A DNA stretch of 64,000 nt from Blastococcus capsensis (GTDB lineage Bacteria; Actinomycetota; Actinomycetes; Mycobacteriales; Geodermatophilaceae): NCBI RefSeq assembly GCF_030165005.1, contig NZ_JASNNW010000009.1, positions 1 through 64,000 of the forward strand, in the 5' to 3' direction. Under the pieces are notes generated by a model, which saw nothing but the letters and a program-made list of their open reading frames with translations, was not told the DNA's origin and did no database searches. The position numbers were made by a program, and so were the translations under genes. Positions 37,296 through 46,208 of this stretch are shown piece by piece. Every line of letters starts with the position of its first letter. Position 1 is the stretch's first letter.

Positions 37296-37575
37296 CTGGA
37301 GGTCTCCGACATGGGTGTGACGGTGAACGACATCGCCCCGGGCATGGTGCTGCCCCCGGTGAACCAGAAGGCGATCGACGACCCGGACTTCCGGGAGGAG
37401 CAGGTGCAGAGCATCCCGCGCAAGCGGCCCGCGCTGCCGGAGGAGGTCGGACGCCTCGCGGTGCTCCTCGCCTCCAGCGAAGCTGAGCACGTCACCGGCG
37501 CCACCTACGGTCATGGGCGGGGGCCCGATGCGGATGTCGGGCCAGGGCGCCCGACCCAGCACCAGGAATGATCCT
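37296..37575 (+). pseudogene. C-terminal fragment of an SDR gene, frameshifted
   Basis: Translates to LEVSDMGVTVNDIAPGMVLPP, ALPEEVGRLAVLLASSEAEHVTGATY, then shifts frame to GGGPMRMSGQGA. This is the C-terminal third of a glucose-dehydrogenase-like SDR, which normally ends GATY-x-DGG. The Rossmann N-terminus and catalytic Tyr/Lys are missing. No functional protein is expected. The rest of 37222-37656 holds no gene. Confidence 0.75.
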
Positions 37576-37656
37576 CCGCCGGCCGGGGTACAGGGCGCCA
37601 TCGACGATCGCGCCTGTGCCCTGCCGGCGACATCCCTTCGACGGCCTGGAGGCCCG

Positions 37657-38889
37657 ATGACCCTGACTGCCCCTCCCGTCTCTGATCTGCGCGCCCGGAT
37701 CCTCGCCGTCCGGTCGCTGACCGAGGCCTTGGCCGCGCCGCTGTCTGCGGAGGACCAGACGGTGCAGTCGATGCCGGATGCCAGTCCGACCAAGTGGCAC
37801 CGGGCGCACACGTCCTGGTTCTTCGAGGAATTCCTGCTCGGCCCCGCCGGCCGCGCGCCCTACGACCCGTCGTTCGGGTACCTGTTCAACTCCTACTACG
37901 AGGCCGTCGGGCCGCGGCACCCGCGCCCGCATCGAGGGCTGATCACCCGGCCGGGCGCCGCCGAGATCGGCCGGTACCGGGCCCACGTCGACGCCGCGCT
38001 GGCCGACCTGGTGTCGAACGGGCTGGACGAGGAGCAGGCCGCGGTGGTGGTGCTGGGGCTCAACCACGAGCAGCAGCACCAGGAGCTGCTCGTCATGGAC
38101 GCCAAGCACCTGCTGGGCGGCCAGCCGTTCGGGCAGGTCTACGCCGCCCGCCCCGCGGACCCCGCTACCCCGTCGCCGGCCCTGACCTGGCGCGCGGTCG
38201 AGGGCGGGCTCGTGGAGGTGGGCCACGGCGGCACCGGCTTCGCCTACGACAACGAGGGGCCGGCGCACCGGGTGTGGCTGGAACCGTTCGAGATCGCCGA
38301 ACGGGCCGTGACGAACGAGGACTGGCTGGCGTTCATGGCCGACGACGGCTACGAACGGCCGGAGTTCTGGCTCTCCGACGGCTGGCAGGCGATCGGCCGC
38401 ACCGGCTGGCGGGCCCCGGAGTACTGGAGCCAGCAGGACGGGGAGTGGACGACGTGGACGCTGGCCGGACAGCGGCCGCTGGTGCCCGGGGAGCCGGTGT
38501 GCCACGTCTCCTTCTACGAGGCGGACGCCTACGCCCGCTGGGCCGGCGCCCGTCTGCCCACCGAGTTCGAGTGGGAGACCGCCGCCCGGCCGGTGGCCCA
38601 CCTGCGCGGCCAGCTGCTCGATCCGCAGCGGCTGCACCCGGGCCCGGCGGGGCAGCACATGATCGGGGACGTGTGGGAGTGGACCTCCAGCGCCTATCTG
38701 CCCTACCCGGGGTTCGTGCCGGTCGAGGGCGCGATCGGTGAGTACAACGGCAAGTTCATGTCCGACCAGCACGTGCTCCGGGGGGCGAGCTGTGCCACGC
38801 CTGCCGGGCATGAGCGGCTGACGTACCGCAACTTCTTCCCGGCCTCCGCCCGGTGGGCCTTCTCGGGTCTCCGGCTCGCCAGGTCCTGA
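37657..38889 (+). CDS. egtB: Ergothioneine biosynthesis sulfoxide synthase EgtB
   Basis: 410 residues. An N-terminal DinB-like domain has WHRAHTSWFFEEFLL and the iron-binding HEQQHQE (HxxxHxE-type). A C-terminal formylglycine-generating-enzyme-like domain has RAVTNEDWLAFM, HVSFYEADAYARWAGARLPTEFEWE, GDVWEWTSSAY and LRGASCATPAGH. It forms the C-S bond between hercynine and a cysteinyl thiol donor with O2. GGAGG precedes the ATG by 6 bases. It is followed by egtD after 42 bases; egtA, egtC and egtE are not in the window. Confidence 0.94.
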   Translation: MTLTAPPVSDLRARILAVRSLTEALAAPLSAEDQTVQSMPDASPTKWHRAHTSWFFEEFLLGPAGRAPYDPSFGYLFNSYYEAVGPRHPRPHRGLITRPGAAEIGRYRAHVDAALADLVSNGLDEEQAAVVVLGLNHEQQHQELLVMDAKHLLGGQPFGQVYAARPADPATPSPALTWRAVEGGLVEVGHGGTGFAYDNEGPAHRVWLEPFEIAERAVTNEDWLAFMADDGYERPEFWLSDGWQAIGRTGWRAPEYWSQQDGEWTTWTLAGQRPLVPGEPVCHVSFYEADAYARWAGARLPTEFEWETAARPVAHLRGQLLDPQRLHPGPAGQHMIGDVWEWTSSAYLPYPGFVPVEGAIGEYNGKFMSDQHVLRGASCATPAGHERLTYRNFFPASARWAFSGLRLARS

Positions 38890-38931
38890 TCCCGCACCTG
38901 CCTTCCCCACCCGCCTGACCCGAGGACGCCT

Positions 38932-39948
38932 GTGACGACCGCCTGCCCGCCCGACCCGGGGACCCCGGTCTCGAGCACTGCCGCGCTGCAGCTGGAGCGG
39001 CACCTGCACCCCACCGCCATGCGACGGGCCCTGGAGGACGACGTCCGCGCCGGGCTCACCGCGTCCCCCAAGACCCTTCCGCCGAAGTGGTTCTACGACG
39101 CCAGGGGCTCGCAGTTGTTCGATGCGATCACCCGGCTGCCGGAGTACTACCCGACCCGGACCGAACGCGCCCTGCTGGTCGAGCACGCGCACGAGATCGC
39201 GTCCCTCACCCGCGCCGACACCCTCGTCGAGCTCGGCAGCGGGACGTCGGAGAAGACCCGGCTGCTGCTGGACGCCCTGCGCGAGGCCGGCAGTCTGTGC
39301 CGCTTCGTGCCCTTCGACGTCGACGAGTCGGTGCTGAGGCAGGCGGGTGCGGCCGTCCTCGAGGAGTATCCCGAGCTGGTGGTGCACGCCCTCGTCGGGG
39401 ACTTCGAGCACCACCTACCCCTGCTGCCGACCGGGGGCAGCCGGCTGTTCGCCTTCCTCGGCGGCACCATCGGCAACCTGCTCCCCGCCGAGCGCGCAGA
39501 CTTCCTGCGCACCCTCTCGACCGGCATGGCCCCGGGTGATGCGCTGCTGCTCGGCACCGACCTGGTCAAGGACCCCGGCCGCCTCGTGCGCGCCTACGAC
39601 GACTCAGCGGGGGTCACCGCAGAGTTCAACCGCAACGTGCTGCGGGTGCTCGCTCGTGAGCTGGATGCGCAGGTCGATCCAGAGGCGTTCGAGCACGTTG
39701 CGGTGTGGAACGCCGAGCAGGAGTGGATCGAGATGCGGCTGCGGTCGGTCCGCGCCCAGGTGGTACGCGTGCTGGACCTCGAGGTGCCTTTCGCGGAGGG
39801 CGAGGAGCTGCGGACCGAGATCAGCGCGAAGTTCCGTCGTCCCGTGGTCGAGGCCGAGCTCACCGCCGCGGGACTGGAGCTGGTGCGCTGGTGGACCGAC
39901 CGGAGCGGTGACTACGCACTGTCCCTGGCCTGCAAGCCGGGGCCCTGA
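38932..39948 (+). CDS. egtD: L-histidine N-alpha-methyltransferase EgtD
   Basis: SAM-dependent enzyme of 338 residues that makes hercynine, the first step of ergothioneine synthesis. Motifs are [30 protein letters not shown], the SAM loop [24 protein letters not shown] and [11 protein letters not shown]. The GTG start is separated by 42 bases from egtB, so the two form a short operon. Hercynine feeds directly to EgtB. The remaining steps must be encoded elsewhere or by a non-dedicated lyase. Confidence 0.95.
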
Positions 39949-40863: not shown

Positions 40864-41189
40864 GCGGTGCGGCATGCGCGACCGGCCAGGAGGACGCCAT
40901 GTCCCTCCTCGACCGTTCAACCGGGCATCCCTCCCCGGCAGCGGACATCGGCACGCGACAGCTCACAGGCCGGATGCCTCGAGCAGACGCAACCAGATCT
41001 TGCTGATGGTCGGGAATGACGGCACTGCGTGCCCGGGACCCGTCGCGCGGCGGCCAATGGGTGAACCGGGCGCAGCAGCGCCTCGGAGGGCATGCACGCC
41101 AGCACGGGTCAGGGCGGCCGTGCCGGGGGACTTGCGGTGGGAACGGCGAGACAGAGTTCACGGGCGCGCCGGTACAGTCCGCGGTGAAG

Positions 41190-41278
41190 AGCGGGAGCTC
41201 GGGCGCACCGGGCTGAGAGGGCGGCACAAGGCGCCGCCGACCGCATGAACCTGACCGGGTAATGCCGGCGAAGGGACT
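41190..41278 (+). ncRNA. TPP riboswitch (THI element)
   Basis: The thi-box core is present in order: GCACCGGGCTGAGAGGG with the invariant CUGAGA, a variable GGCGGC/GCCGCC stem, then GACCGCATGAACCTGACCGGG and TAATGCCGGCGAAGGGA. The CTGAGA, GAACCTGA, GGGTAATGCC and GCGAAGGGA boxes match the TPP aptamer consensus closely. The terminal GAAGGGA is also the ribosome-binding site of the GTG at 41283, so TPP binding should lock the Shine-Dalgarno into P1 and block translation. The 5' edge is approximate. It controls the transporter-luxE-luxC-SDR operon. Confidence 0.92.
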
Positions 41279-41282
41279 CGGC

Positions 41283-42710
41283 GTGGTAGGCATCCCCCTG
41301 ACAGTGGCTGCCGTGGCTGCCGTGCTCCTGCTGTTCGCCGCGGTCGGTCTCGCGGTCGGCCGCGATCGCGACCTGGAGGAGTTCGCCGTCGCCCGGGGCA
41401 CGCAGGGCGGTGGAGCACTCGGCCTGTCGTTCTTCGCCTCGGGCGTGGGCGCGTGGGTGCTGTTCGCGCCCCCGGAGGTGGGCGCCCAGGTCGGCCTGGC
41501 CGGCGTGCTCGGCTACGCGGTGGCTATCACCCTGCCGCTGGCGGCACTGGCACTGGTCGGCCGGCGGCTGCGTGCTCTCGTGCCGGCCGGGCACAACCTC
41601 GTGGAATTCGTGCGGCTGCGCTTCGGACGCGGGATGCACCTGTACGTGCTGGGGATCTCGCTGGTCTACATGCTGGTGGCCCTGGCCGCCGAGCTGACGG
41701 CCACCGCGGCGGTGCTGGGTCGACTGAGCGATCTCGACCCGCGGGTCGGCGTCGCGGCCATCGCCGTGGTCACCACCGTCTACACCGCCTACGGCGGGCT
41801 GCGCGCCTCCATCCGCACCGACGGGTGGCAGGGCTGGCTGCTCCTGCTGCTGTTGGCCGTGGTGGGGATCGTGCTCGTCCGGGCGCTCCCGGACACCGGT
41901 CCGCAGGACGCCGGGCGGCTGCTGCAGATCGACCTGGCCGGCCTGGAAGGCGCCGCGACGCTGGTAGTGGCGGTGCTGGCCACGAGCCTGTTCCACAACG
42001 GCTACTGGCAGCGCGTGTGGTCAGCCCGCGACCAGCGGGCCCTGACCCGCGGTGCGGTGATCGGCGCCGCGATGCGGTTCCTGGTGGTGCTACCGGCGGG
42101 CCTGGTGGGGCTGCTCGCCGCCGCCGCAGCGGTCGACCTGGGCACTCCGCCCGCACCGTTCTTCGCGCTGCTGGCCGGCTCGTCGCAGTGGGTGCTCGTC
42201 GTCGTCCTGCTGTTCACCCTGGCCCTCGTCACCTCCACCGTCGACACCCTGCAGAACGGGTTGGCCGCTGCCGTGGTCATCGAGGCGCCGCGGATGGGGC
42301 TCCGCGGAGCGCGCGTGCTGGTGGTGCTGCTCACCGTGCTGCCGACGCTGGTGGCCTTCCAGGGCTTCTCGGTGCTGCGGCTGTTCCTGATCGCCGACCT
42401 GCTGTGCGCGGCGACCATCGCGCCGGCCTTCCTGGGGCTGTGGCGCCGGGCGACCCCCACCGCCGCGATCTCCGGAGCCGTGGCGGGCCTGGTCGGCGCG
42501 CTCGCCTACGGCCTGGTGGCCGGTGGGTCGCTGAGCGCCGCCCTGGCGCTGGCCACGTTCGCCGGTGGCCTGTCGCTGCCTCCCTTCGCTGCGGCGCTCG
42601 CGGCGTCCACCGCGGTCACGGTCCTCGTCAGCCTCCTGGGCCGGCGCAGCACCGACCTGCGGGACCTGTCGGACCGGGTGCTGTCGCTGGACACCACGGG
42701 AACGCGATGA
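41283..42710 (+). CDS. SSS-family sodium:solute symporter under TPP riboswitch
   Basis: About 475 residues and 13 hydrophobic helices. SSS traits are FFASGVGAWVLFAPPEVGA near helix 2, LVEFVRLRFGRGMHLYVLGISLVYM, TAYGGLRASIRTDGWQG, and NGYWQRVWSARDQRALTRGA. The family imports organic acids, vitamins and sugars with Na+. The TPP riboswitch marks the substrate as thiamine-related; predicted ThiV transporters are also SSS proteins (family knowledge). An ATG at 41262 lies inside the aptamer, so the GTG at 41283, 7 bases after AAGGGA, is the start. The stop overlaps the next ATG (ATGA). Confidence 0.88.
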   Translation: MVGIPLTVAAVAAVLLLFAAVGLAVGRDRDLEEFAVARGTQGGGALGLSFFASGVGAWVLFAPPEVGAQVGLAGVLGYAVAITLPLAALALVGRRLRALVPAGHNLVEFVRLRFGRGMHLYVLGISLVYMLVALAAELTATAAVLGRLSDLDPRVGVAAIAVVTTVYTAYGGLRASIRTDGWQGWLLLLLLAVVGIVLVRALPDTGPQDAGRLLQIDLAGLEGAATLVVAVLATSLFHNGYWQRVWSARDQRALTRGAVIGAAMRFLVVLPAGLVGLLAAAAAVDLGTPPAPFFALLAGSSQWVLVVVLLFTLALVTSTVDTLQNGLAAAVVIEAPRMGLRGARVLVVLLTVLPTLVAFQGFSVLRLFLIADLLCAATIAPAFLGLWRRATPTAAISGAVAGLVGALAYGLVAGGSLSAALALATFAGGLSLPPFAAALAASTAVTVLVSLLGRRSTDLRDLSDRVLSLDTTGTR

Positions 42711-43888
42711 TCGGCTCCGAGCCGGAGCTGCCCGCTCTGGACGCCCGGCTGCTGACCTGGATCGAGCGGGCGGCGCAGCGGTGGGACGACGCCGGCCCGG
42801 GCGACGACGAGGAGGCGAAGTTCGACCGCCTGGCGCTGGAGCTGTTCGCCGACCAGTACGAGCGCAACACTCCCTACCGGCGCTTCTGCCGGGCCCGCGG
42901 GGCGGAGCCGGGGCGGATCGCGCGGTGGCAGCAGATCCCGCCCGTGCCGCTGAGCGCCTTCAAGGAGCTCACCCTGTCCTGCGACCCGCCGGAGCGCGCA
43001 GCCGCCGTCTTCATGACCAGCGGGAGCACGGACCCGGGCCGGCGCGGGCGTAACCATCATCCACACCTGCGGCTGTACGACGCCTCGCTCCGGGCGAGCT
43101 TCCGGCACTGGTTCCTGCCCGACCGGGAGCAGCTCCGGCTGCTGGTCCTCAACCCCCCGTCCGCACAGCAGCCGCACTCCTCCCTCGCCTACTTCCTCGG
43201 GCAGCTGGTCGAGTCCTTCGGCGCGCCCGGCAGCGGCTCCTTCGTCGACGAGGAGGGCCTGGACGTCGACGCACTCACCGCCGCCCTGGCAGAGGCGGAG
43301 CGGGACGGGGTGGCGGTCGGGTTGCTCGGCACGTCGTTCGCCTACGTCCACCTGCTCGACGCGCTGGAGGCCACCGGCGCCTCCTTCACCCTCCCCGACG
43401 GGAGCCGGCTGCTGGACACCGGCGGGTTCAAGGGCCGGTCCCGGGAGATCTCCGCCGAAGCCCTGCGCGCCGCGTTCGGGACCCGGCTCGGCATCCCCGA
43501 GGACTGGTGCGTCAACTACTACGGGATGACCGAGATCAGCACCCAGTACTACGACACCAGCCTGCGGCGCGCCTGGCTCGGGCAGGACCGCGGTCCCCGG
43601 GTCAAGGCCGTGCCACCGTGGGCCCGCCTGCTCGTGGTCGACCCGGGCACCGGCGGGCCGGTGCCCGAGGGGGAGCGCGGTCTGCTGGTCCACTACGACC
43701 TGGCCAACCGCGGCTCCTGCCTCGCCGTGCTGGCCGAGGACGTCGGGCACCTCGCACCTGATCCCGCCACAGGCACACGCGGCAGCAACGAGTTCGTGCT
43801 CCTGGGGCGGGCGCAGGGCAGCGAGGCGCGCGGTTGCTCCATCGCCCTGGACGAGCTGCTGGCGGCCAACGAGGGACGCCGGCGGTGA
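42707..43888 (+). CDS. luxE: LuxE-like acyl-protein synthetase
   Basis: 393 residues. LuxE-family signs are KFDRLALELFADQYERNTPYRRFC, IPPVPLSAFKE, VFMTSGSTDPGRRGRN (ATP-binding loop of adenylate-forming enzymes), LLDTGGFKGRSREIS, NYYGMTEISTQYYD and a C-terminal ARGCSIALDELL, where Cys 377 would be the acyl-accepting residue. LuxE activates a carboxylic acid as acyl-AMP and moves it to Cys for reduction by LuxC. It overlaps the transporter stop and the luxC-like start by four bases each. luxA/luxB are absent, so no light emission is implied. The acid is probably not a long fatty acid given the TPP control (inference). Confidence 0.88.
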   Translation: MIGSEPELPALDARLLTWIERAAQRWDDAGPGDDEEAKFDRLALELFADQYERNTPYRRFCRARGAEPGRIARWQQIPPVPLSAFKELTLSCDPPERAAAVFMTSGSTDPGRRGRNHHPHLRLYDASLRASFRHWFLPDREQLRLLVLNPPSAQQPHSSLAYFLGQLVESFGAPGSGSFVDEEGLDVDALTAALAEAERDGVAVGLLGTSFAYVHLLDALEATGASFTLPDGSRLLDTGGFKGRSREISAEALRAAFGTRLGIPEDWCVNYYGMTEISTQYYDTSLRRAWLGQDRGPRVKAVPPWARLLVVDPGTGGPVPEGERGLLVHYDLANRGSCLAVLAEDVGHLAPDPATGTRGSNEFVLLGRAQGSEARGCSIALDELLAANEGRRR

Positions 43889-45393
43889 CCCGGCTCCCGG
43901 CGTCCGATGCGGTGGATGCCTTCTTCCTGCCCCAGCTCGACGCCGCGGAGCTGGCCGTCCTGGAGTGGACGACGAGGCCGGTGGGCACGGTGCCGCTGCG
44001 GTTCCCGGTCGTGACGCCGGAGCTGGTCGAGCAGTTGTGCGATCGCCTCCTGCAGGCCCAGGCCGACGAGCTCGCCGAGCGCCCGGTGATGGAGGTGCTC
44101 GAAGTCCTGGGCAGGGCGGTGGCCCGGTGGTACGACCCGTCCTGCCCGCAGCGGCGCCGAGCCGAGGAGCTGCTGCCCGGGATCACCGGCTACGCCCCCG
44201 AGATGGTGCGCCGCGGGCTGAAGGAACACCTGAGGACCTTCCGCCGGGACCGGCTGCTGCGGTTCCTCGCTCAGGACTTCGACAACCCGCTGGTGCTCGA
44301 CGGGTTCCACCCGAACCGGGCCGGCGGCCGCTCCCGCGCCTACGGCCCGCGCCTGACGACCCAGTTCTTCGCGGGCAACGTGCCCGGGCTGCCGGCCTGG
44401 AACCTGGTCTGCGCCTTCCTGGTGAAGTCGGCGACCCTGGGCAAATCCGCCGGCGCCGAGCCGCTGTTCCCCGTCCTGTTCGCCCACACGATCGCCGAGG
44501 AGGACCCGGGCCTGGCCCGGTGCCTGGCCGTCCTGCACTGGCCCGGCGGGCAGGAGGACGTCGAGCAGACCGCCTTCGCCCGCTCGGACGCGGTGATGGC
44601 GACCGCGGGCTTGCGCGCGACGGAGAGCCTGGCCCAGCGCGTGCCCGTCGGCATGCCGTTCGTCCCCTACGGCCACAAGGTGAGCTTCGCCGTGGTCGGG
44701 CACGAGGCGTTGGCGCTGACCCGGTTCGCCGACACGGCCCGCCGGGTGGCCCGGGACGTGTCCCAGTACGACCAGCAGGGCTGCCTGTCCCCGCACGCGG
44801 TGTTCGTCGAGCGCGGGGGAGCGGTGGATCCGCGGGCGTTCTCCGCGGCCCTGGCCGCGGAGATGGAGCGCTACGAGCGGTCCAGGCCCCGGGCCGGTCT
44901 CCGGTTCGAGGAGAGCGCCGCCATCGCCGGGGTGCGTGCGCGGTACGAGTTCCGCTCCTACGACGAGGACCAGGGGGTGGAGGTCTTCAGCAGCCGGCAC
45001 GGGAACGCCTGGACGGTGCTGTTCGAAGAGCGCCCCGAGCGGTTCGAGCCCTCTCCCCTCAACCGGGTGGTGCGGGTGCACCCGGTCGACGGCATCGAGG
45101 ACGTCGTGCCCCACCTGCTCCCACTGCGCCGCTACCTGCAGACAGCCGGGATCGCGTGCGCCCCGGAGCGCCTCGACGCCTGGGCCTCGCTGCTCGGCCG
45201 CTGCGGCGCGGACCGCATCTGCGCGGTGGGGCAGATGCCGCAGCCGGCGGCGGGGTGGCACCACGACGGCCTGGGCAGCCTGGCCTCTCTCGTGCGGTGG
45301 ACCGACATCGAGGGCGCGGCCGAGGCCGACGTGGAGCGGTACGACCCCGAGTGGACCCGGCCTTCGGGCTCGTCGGACGGGGGGCCGCGGTGA
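43885..45393 (+). CDS. luxC: LuxC-like acyl reductase
   Basis: 502 residues related to LuxC acyl-CoA/acyl-protein reductases. FFAGNVPGLPAWNLVCAFLVKSATLGKSAGAEPLFP matches the nucleotide/acyl region, with HTIAEEDPGLARCLAVLHWPGG next. The catalytic Cys is in YDQQGCLSPHAVFVE (Cys 300), and HHDGLGSLASLVRWTDIE closes the protein. It would reduce the acyl group delivered by LuxE to an aldehyde using NAD(P)H. GTG start inside the luxE stop and GTGA overlap with the SDR gene indicate tight translational coupling. Confidence 0.88.
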   Translation: MTRLPASDAVDAFFLPQLDAAELAVLEWTTRPVGTVPLRFPVVTPELVEQLCDRLLQAQADELAERPVMEVLEVLGRAVARWYDPSCPQRRRAEELLPGITGYAPEMVRRGLKEHLRTFRRDRLLRFLAQDFDNPLVLDGFHPNRAGGRSRAYGPRLTTQFFAGNVPGLPAWNLVCAFLVKSATLGKSAGAEPLFPVLFAHTIAEEDPGLARCLAVLHWPGGQEDVEQTAFARSDAVMATAGLRATESLAQRVPVGMPFVPYGHKVSFAVVGHEALALTRFADTARRVARDVSQYDQQGCLSPHAVFVERGGAVDPRAFSAALAAEMERYERSRPRAGLRFEESAAIAGVRARYEFRSYDEDQGVEVFSSRHGNAWTVLFEERPERFEPSPLNRVVRVHPVDGIEDVVPHLLPLRRYLQTAGIACAPERLDAWASLLGRCGADRICAVGQMPQPAAGWHHDGLGSLASLVRWTDIEGAAEADVERYDPEWTRPSGSSDGGPR

Positions 45394-46208
45394 GCGCCGT
45401 CCCCGGGGCCGGCGGGTACGCGGGCGGCCTGGGACGCAGCGACCTCCTGGCCGGACGTGTGGCGCTGGTCACCGGCGCCAGTCGCGGCATCGGCGCCGCC
45501 GTCGCCCGTGCGCTGGGCGCCCACGGGGCTGCCGTCGTCGTGAACTACCTGCGCGATGCGGCGTCCGCCGAGCGCGTCGTCGCCGACATCGAGGGCTCCG
45601 GAGGGCGGGCCCGTGCCTTCCGCGCCGACGTCACCGACCCCGCTGCCGTCCAGCGGATGCTCGCCGAGGTCGAGGACCGCTTCGGACCCGCGGACATCGT
45701 GGTCAACAACGCGCTGCGCAGCTACACCTTCGACCCGCTGGCCCGCCGGACGGCGTGGGAGACGACGTGGGAGGACTACCAGCACCAGCTGGCGGGCAGC
45801 CTCGGAGGGGCGGTGAACGTCTGCCGCGCGGCGCTCCCCGGCATGCAGGCCCGCGGCGGTGGCCGGATCGTCACCATGGTCACCGACCTCGTCGAGCGGC
45901 CCAGCGTGCCCTACCACGACTACACGACGGCCAAGGCCGCCCTGCTCGGCTTCTCCCGGAACCTGGCCGCCGAGCTCGGGCCCTTCGGGATCACGGTCAA
46001 CTGCGTCGCACCCGGGCTGGTGCACCCCACGGACTCCAGCCGCGCGGCGACGGACGAGCAGCGGGATGCCCTGGAGGAGGCCACGCCACTGCGTCGGCTG
46101 GCCACCCCGGAAGACGTAGCCGGGGCGGTGCTCTTCTTCGCCAGTGACTGGGCCGCCTTCGTGACCGGCGCCTGCCTCTTCGTCGACGGCGGCCTGGTCA
46201 TGCGCTGA
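45390..46208 (+). CDS. SDR family reductase, FabG-like, of the TPP-controlled operon
   Basis: 272 residues: TGASRGIGAAVARAL cofactor motif, DVTDPAAVQRML, VVNNALRSYTF (NNA instead of NNAG), and YTTAK with catalytic Tyr and Lys. The usual catalytic Ser, 13 residues before Tyr, is Thr (MVTDL). The C-terminus VTGACLFVDGGLVMR is normal. As last gene of the operon it is placed to reduce the aldehyde from LuxC to an alcohol (inference); a fatty acyl or sugar substrate is also possible. GTG start overlaps the luxC stop. Confidence 0.85.
   Translation: MSAVPGAGGYAGGLGRSDLLAGRVALVTGASRGIGAAVARALGAHGAAVVVNYLRDAASAERVVADIEGSGGRARAFRADVTDPAAVQRMLAEVEDRFGPADIVVNNALRSYTFDPLARRTAWETTWEDYQHQLAGSLGGAVNVCRAALPGMQARGGGRIVTMVTDLVERPSVPYHDYTTAKAALLGFSRNLAAELGPFGITVNCVAPGLVHPTDSSRAATDEQRDALEEATPLRRLATPEDVAGAVLFFASDWAAFVTGACLFVDGGLVMR

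Follow-up and report, generated by a model that had tools for sequence, protein, structure and literature searches.

A TPP riboswitch-associated LuxE-LuxC-SDR operon in Blastococcus capsensis: a candidate route for salvage of a thiamine-related carboxylic acid by reduction

Organisation of the operon and its riboswitch

A stretch of 64,000 nucleotides from Blastococcus capsensis (Geodermatophilaceae; assembly GCF_030165005.1, contig NZ_JASNNW010000009.1, positions 1 to 64,000), hereafter the window, carries a thiamine pyrophosphate (TPP) riboswitch aptamer followed on the forward strand by genes coding, in 5' to 3' order, for a symporter of the SSS family, a LuxE-like acyl-protein synthetase, a LuxC-like acyl reductase and a short-chain dehydrogenase/reductase (SDR) (Table 1). 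This arrangement had been proposed in an earlier reading of the letters alone (the sequence-only reading) and is borne out by the Rfam match, the Pfam assignments and the open reading frames (ORFs), with consecutive genes joined by four-base overlaps (ATGA for SSS/LuxE; GTGA for both LuxE/LuxC and LuxC/SDR). The genes luxA, luxB and luxD, which together with luxC and luxE define a bioluminescence lux operon, are not among the four, as had likewise been stated; the genome beyond the operon was not searched for them.

Table 1. Features of the TPP riboswitch-associated operon in the window
Feature	Position	Strand	Evidence and remarks
TPP riboswitch aptamer (RF00059)	41181..41294	+	cmscan; overlaps start of first gene
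SSS-family sodium:solute symporter, distantly PanF-like	41283..42710 (or from ATG 41262)	+	PF00474; proposed acid importer
LuxE-like acyl-adenylating / acyl-protein synthetase, Cys377	42707..43888	+	PF04443; 7xc6_E; AlphaFold (AF2) model
LuxC-like acyl reductase, Cys300	43885..45393	+	PF05893; 7xc6_A
SDR oxidoreductase, Tyr178 and Lys182	45390..46208	+	PF13561; NF006393; proposed aldehyde-to-alcohol reductase

The aptamer match covers the full RF00059 model (positions 1-105; 51.7 bits; E 2.5e-9 in the 501 bases searched), and six further leaders from actinobacteria have nearly the same core (seven leaders including that of the window). The leader would bind TPP, and control is probably exerted on translation, since the 3' end of the aptamer overlaps the likely ribosome-binding site. 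This motif (GAAGGGA) is located six bases 5' of the GTG at 41283, a position that fits ribosome binding. Two starts are possible for the symporter ORF; the ATG at 41262 sits within the conserved aptamer core, and the GTG at 41283 is the more likely start, because Blastococcus atacamensis shows an ATG at the same place. Folding of the leader RNA revealed no excess stability (z -0.44), a measure that is uninformative for a riboswitch. Judged from the five TPP sites of the genome, the probability that a random 300-base leader contains such a site is p ~3e-4.

Conservation of the riboswitch linkage

Seventeen loci of this LuxE/LuxC clade were examined, comprising that of the window, seven other actinobacterial and nine plasmid loci, and these span three phyla, the Actinomycetota, Pseudomonadota and Bacillota. 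A TPP aptamer occurs upstream at all seventeen (eleven over the Rfam cut-off; six under it, at E 3e-5 or less), showing that the riboswitch-luxEC linkage, on the uniqueness of which the sequence-only reading had let its proposal depend, is not peculiar to this genome. The SDR is encoded inside the operon at 16/17 loci, with a Rubrobacter metagenome-assembled genome (MAG) as the exception. Relatives of LuxE are rare (7/200 genomes of the order and 6/396 of the phylum at E 1e-10, both including B. capsensis itself), and besides the latter only one clade member was found in each of these searches.

Two peptide patterns run against the genomes collected in GTDB matched fourteen loci, seven of which share 66-88 % identity, in Modestobacter caceresii, B. 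atacamensis, Geodermatophilus chilensis, two Arthrobacter strains, the Rubrobacter MAG and an Actinomycetota MAG. A TPP aptamer precedes the genes in each of the seven (43.8-63.1 bits; for Modestobacter and Rubrobacter the contigs read were the matching L020 and L028), and six retain the order SSS-LuxE-LuxC-SDR. In the Rubrobacter MAG the aptamer lies immediately 5' of LuxE-LuxC on a contig of 3005 bases, and an SDR with 54.5 % identity is encoded elsewhere, behind a TPP aptamer of its own. Both Arthrobacter loci have ThiM, ThiE and ThiD next to the operon, which is divergent from TPP-thiM-thiE-thiD.

LuxE relatives at 40-47 % identity were recovered in a search of plasmid proteins, and nine loci were read among the 35 LuxE-matching and 50 LuxC-matching records (two each of Pantoea and Azospirillum, and one each of Priestia, Niallia, Lactiplantibacillus, Levilactobacillus and Pseudomonas silvicola). 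The Lactiplantibacillus and Levilactobacillus loci carry the same proteins. The aptamer is over the cut-off in eight of the nine, that of Priestia falling under it (49.0 bits; E 5.5e-7). On the Niallia megaplasmid (L096 4766-5062), two TPP aptamers in tandem, scoring 85.0 and 72.9 bits, precede thiW-NCS2-luxE-luxC-SDR. The P. silvicola plasmid (L102 7001-10252), with an aptamer over the cut-off, matches LuxE, LuxC and the SDR in several pieces, and this copy is apparently broken.

No TPP aptamer was found at five LuxC outgroup loci (three tested at the gathering threshold only and two at E 0.05). Among distant LuxE relatives, none was found with L023 and L024 (gathering threshold only), L026, L027 and L042; the test omitted the Bacteroidota relatives (L038-L041 and L043) and locus L019. 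The LuxE relatives of L026, L027 (genomes G326 and G358) and L042 (Motiliproteus) have 35-38 % identity and no LuxC match in the fetched stretch. In the LuxC tree, a branch with 89/89 support, present in 90 % of bootstrap trees, separates the fifteen TPP-linked rows from the five rows without a found aptamer; this support is moderate and below the strong mark of the tool. Two of the five outgroups are near-identical, and their long branches leave the joins between them unsure. The alignments and this tree omit L099, whose cassette is identical to that of L098, and L102, which has an interrupted frame.

Predicted enzymes and transporters

LuxE and LuxC of the window score over their Pfam cut-offs (PF04443, 61.8 bits against 24.9; PF05893, 310.8 bits against 21), and the best solved relatives of both are the chains of the LuxC-LuxE complex 7xc6 (7xc6_E, E 1.6e-15; 7xc6_A, E 1.5e-21). 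The cysteines singled out in the sequence-only reading hold up, with LuxE Cys377 aligning with the cysteine of the KGCS motif of 7xc6 and LuxC Cys300 with that of the YDQQAC motif, which we take to be the catalytic ones; both positions are Cys in 20/20 aligned rows, outgroups included. The likeness to the fatty acid reductase of bioluminescent bacteria thus extends to Pfam families and aligned cysteines, and presumably to a common logic of activation, transfer and reduction. The window proteins are nevertheless distant from 7xc6 in sequence (60 and 80 bits in phmmer) and far below the cut-offs of the long-chain fatty acid equivalogs (LuxE, 53.2 of 550 bits for NF052244; LuxC, 87.4 of 750 bits for NF052251), and their operon differs from that system in lacking luxA, luxB and luxD and in adding a TPP riboswitch, an SDR and a transporter. 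The SDR is assigned to PF13561 (202.3 bits, over the cut-off) and NF006393 (299.8 bits against 292), and its YxxxK residues Y178 and K182 are invariant across 14 aligned rows.

The AlphaFold model of LuxE (mean pLDDT 83.3) finds its closest folds among PaaK-type ligases, adenylating enzymes of which many act on aryl acids, and 7xc6 is not among its best 50 fold matches. PaaK makes coenzyme A (CoA) thioesters, whereas in LuxE a C-terminal cysteine takes the acyl group. The PaaK-like fold of the model would fit a small aromatic acid as substrate.

Three importer types accompany the LuxE-LuxC-SDR core, namely SSS symporters in the actinobacterial loci, ATP-binding cassette (ABC) systems with an NMT1/THI5-like binding protein in Azospirillum and Priestia (PF09084; the two tested score 160 and 177 bits), and NCS2 nucleobase-type permeases in the Lactobacillaceae and Niallia, and the Pantoea cassettes have no importer between aptamer and SDR. 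The window symporter is over the Pfam cut-off for PF00474 (SSF; 37.6 bits) and far below that of the PanF model (22.3 bits against 328). It shares the SSS type with ThiV, the likely importer of 4-amino-5-hydroxymethyl-2-methylpyrimidine (HMP) of SAR11, encoded behind a putative TPP riboswitch (PMC11452348), a likeness at the level of the family. Structural relatives of the binding proteins in the PDB include THI5 and the formylaminopyrimidine-binding protein 3ix1. Since the NMT1/THI5-like ABC, NCS2 and SSS families all include pyrimidine carriers, the alternative importers together suggest a pyrimidine substrate.

Thiamine genes in the carriers

The genome of B. capsensis (99.95 % complete) encodes ThiO, ThiG, ThiM, ThiE and ThiD, and ThiC was not found in it. 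Four TPP sites exist besides that of the operon, and family models identify thiE-, thiO- and thiG-type genes, and thiM with thiD, behind them; ORF reading and tblastn place ThiE between thiM and thiD, and a ykoE-like gene before an ECF-type ATPase. A zinc-type alcohol dehydrogenase on contig C14 of this genome (L007 8590-9600, + strand) is preceded by a TPP aptamer of its own and runs divergently from TPP-thiM. It has TPP-linked relatives in G582 (79.8 %, L079) and G580 (50 %, L076) and might act as a further reductase on thiamine-related aldehydes.

Among the eight actinobacterial carriers, including B. capsensis, ThiD (TIGR00097) is the enzyme found throughout (8/8, seven over the cut-off), the B. 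atacamensis match (107 bits) being an end fragment of 77 residues where the stretch examined stops. ThiM is found in six (245-264 bits), the remaining two giving 24.1 bits and, for a match that falls within a ThiD, 37.8 bits. The kinase for HMP is thus predicted in every carrier, as salvage of a pyrimidine would require, and the kinase for hydroxyethylthiazole, which thiazole salvage would require in each, is not. ThiG is full-scoring in five carriers; the other three have only matches below 32 bits and are also without a found ThiC, and ThiC was not found in five of the eight in all. Since ThiG is present and ThiC was not found in both B. capsensis and B. atacamensis (the latter also without a found ThiM), HMP is apparently the part of thiamine that these two strains cannot make. 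For thiamine pyrophosphokinase (PF04263; cut-off 30.7 bits), three carriers have no match and five have partial ones (30.7-40.1 bits), with no full-length match in any of the eight. Completeness, taken from matching contigs, is 100 % for Modestobacter, 99 % for Geodermatophilus and 89 % for Rubrobacter, and for the remainder absences may reflect assembly gaps.

The family of the window was surveyed in 112 genomes, of which ten have ThiC (not found in 102) and 82 have ThiM. The notion that the carriers are simply strains which have lost ThiC is weakened by this survey.

Proposed function and alternatives

Taken together, there is good reason to regard the operon as one for the salvage, by reduction, of a thiamine-related carboxylic acid, leaving the acid unnamed. 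The enzymatic steps and the substrate are proposed from gene content, the aptamer match, its linkage, the conserved cysteines and the precursor genes of the carriers. At low TPP the leader would permit translation of the operon (TPP-repressed), and the symporter would take up a small heteroaromatic carboxylic acid. LuxE would adenylate the acid with ATP and, through Cys377, hand the acyl group on to LuxC at Cys300. Reduction by LuxC with NAD(P)H would then yield the aldehyde, which the SDR would convert to the alcohol. We put the chances at about even that the acid is 4-amino-2-methylpyrimidine-5-carboxylate; as this is the most likely acid, the product would be HMP, which would be phosphorylated by ThiD and joined by ThiE to thiazole phosphate. 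In the sequence-only reading, the acid was instead 4-methylthiazole-5-acetic or thiamine acetic acid. The TPP-linked sequence of import, activation and two reductions proposed there stands, but neither acid does as best substrate, given a genome with ThiO, ThiG and ThiM and without a found ThiC, and two of eight carriers without a found ThiM; the pyrimidine carboxylate, absent from that reading, fits better than either.

Several observations weigh against the salvage of this pyrimidine acid. ThiC is present in three of the eight carriers, and in two of the four carriers of the family, where it is thus if anything commoner than in the family as a whole; because ThiC is rare across the family, its absence does not mark carriers, and gene absences in draft genomes and MAGs may reflect gaps in assembly. 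The fold matches of the LuxE model are modest (TMq about 0.5-0.6), its best 50 also include a hydroxyisobutyryl ligase and the long-chain FadD1/FadD32, and the PaaK likeness would fit an aryl-acetic acid equally, so that pyrimidine carboxylate and thiazole acetate are not separated by it. The NMT1 and NCS2 families are broad, and both tested binding proteins match 4nmy, presumably a thiamin-bound structure, and 3qsl better than 3ix1. The first gene of the Niallia operon encodes ThiW, which we take to be a predicted thiazole carrier, and the thiM/thiE/thiD neighbourhood in Arthrobacter also leans to thiazole. Finally, the aptamer of the window lies below the Rfam gathering score (54.3 bits) and is therefore missed by a default Rfam scan.

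The same chemistry acting on 4-methylthiazole-5-acetic acid would give hydroxyethylthiazole for ThiM, and would account for ThiW, for the Arthrobacter arrangement and for the three carriers without a full-scoring ThiG. This alternative is unlikely, as B. capsensis has both ThiO and ThiG, the thiMED genes include the ThiD required for a pyrimidine, and ThiM was not found in two carriers, one of which, B. atacamensis, has ThiG without a found ThiC; missing ThiM is in itself plausible, because the gene is variable in the family. The chemistry might also act on thiamine acetic acid and give thiamine directly; this acid is made by a thiamine oxidase of soil bacteria, and 4nmy, presumably thiamin-bound and a close relative of the binding proteins, would agree with such a substrate. 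The acid also features as a thiamine metabolite in a title cited in PMC7575681. We hold this quite improbable in view of the absent or partial PF04263 matches, other thiamine kinases not having been searched for. That the enzymes reduce an acid unrelated to the parts of thiamine, such as a fatty acid, agrees with the names of LuxE and LuxC and with the annotation of the plasmid records (fatty acid ligase and acyl-CoA reductase), but is very unlikely given the scores far under the equivalog cut-offs and the linkage with thi genes and thiamine-type transporters. The low score of the window aptamer would suit a decayed remnant or chance match in an operon not related to thiamine, which is extremely improbable against a linkage held at every clade locus in three phyla, a conserved core and the low chance expectation per leader.

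Two further genes, egtB and egtD, lie just upstream of the operon (window 37513-39948; TIGR03440, 544.8 bits; TIGR03438, 362.4 bits). A link to ergothioneine was considered and rejected: in tblastn with these two proteins, relatives were found beside the operon in Arthrobacter H20 (L033 9623-13301) and not at any of the 15 remaining loci searched, and as only 1/16 shares it, the adjacency is treated as coincidence.

Relation to known thiamine salvage and implications

Known TPP-regulated salvage systems take up precursors intact or phosphorylate them, or else hydrolyse amino or formylamino forms. The operon shares the riboswitch class and presumably the precursors with such systems (thiM-thiE-thiD, ECF carriers, TenA and ThiV), as well as the SSS family, and to our knowledge none of them has been described as reducing a carboxylate. 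In line with the statement of the sequence-only reading that no pathway of this kind was known, no description of a pairing of a TPP aptamer with LuxE/LuxC occurs among the titles and abstract openings listed by searches of the open-licence PubMed Central (PMC) literature. TPP regulons were grouped as biosynthesis and precursor transport by Sun et al. 2013 (PMC3766115), and the term 'lux' is absent from the main text of that paper. The operon would thus represent thiamine precursor salvage, known in kind, with new chemistry borrowed from the LuxE-LuxC reductase. It is an evenly balanced prospect that a TPP riboswitch-controlled pathway has spread horizontally among Actinomycetota, Alpha- and Gammaproteobacteria and Bacilli, which regenerates HMP from its oxidation product 4-amino-2-methylpyrimidine-5-carboxylate, employs interchangeable importers and has recruited LuxE-LuxC from fatty-acid-type chemistry. 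If true, a reductive branch would be added to vitamin B1 salvage, and a function would be assigned to a gene clade currently annotated as fatty acid ligase and acyl-CoA reductase. Carboxylated B1 vitamers would furthermore become a usable nutrient, with soil, plant-associated and food bacteria recycling the oxidised breakdown products of the vitamin.

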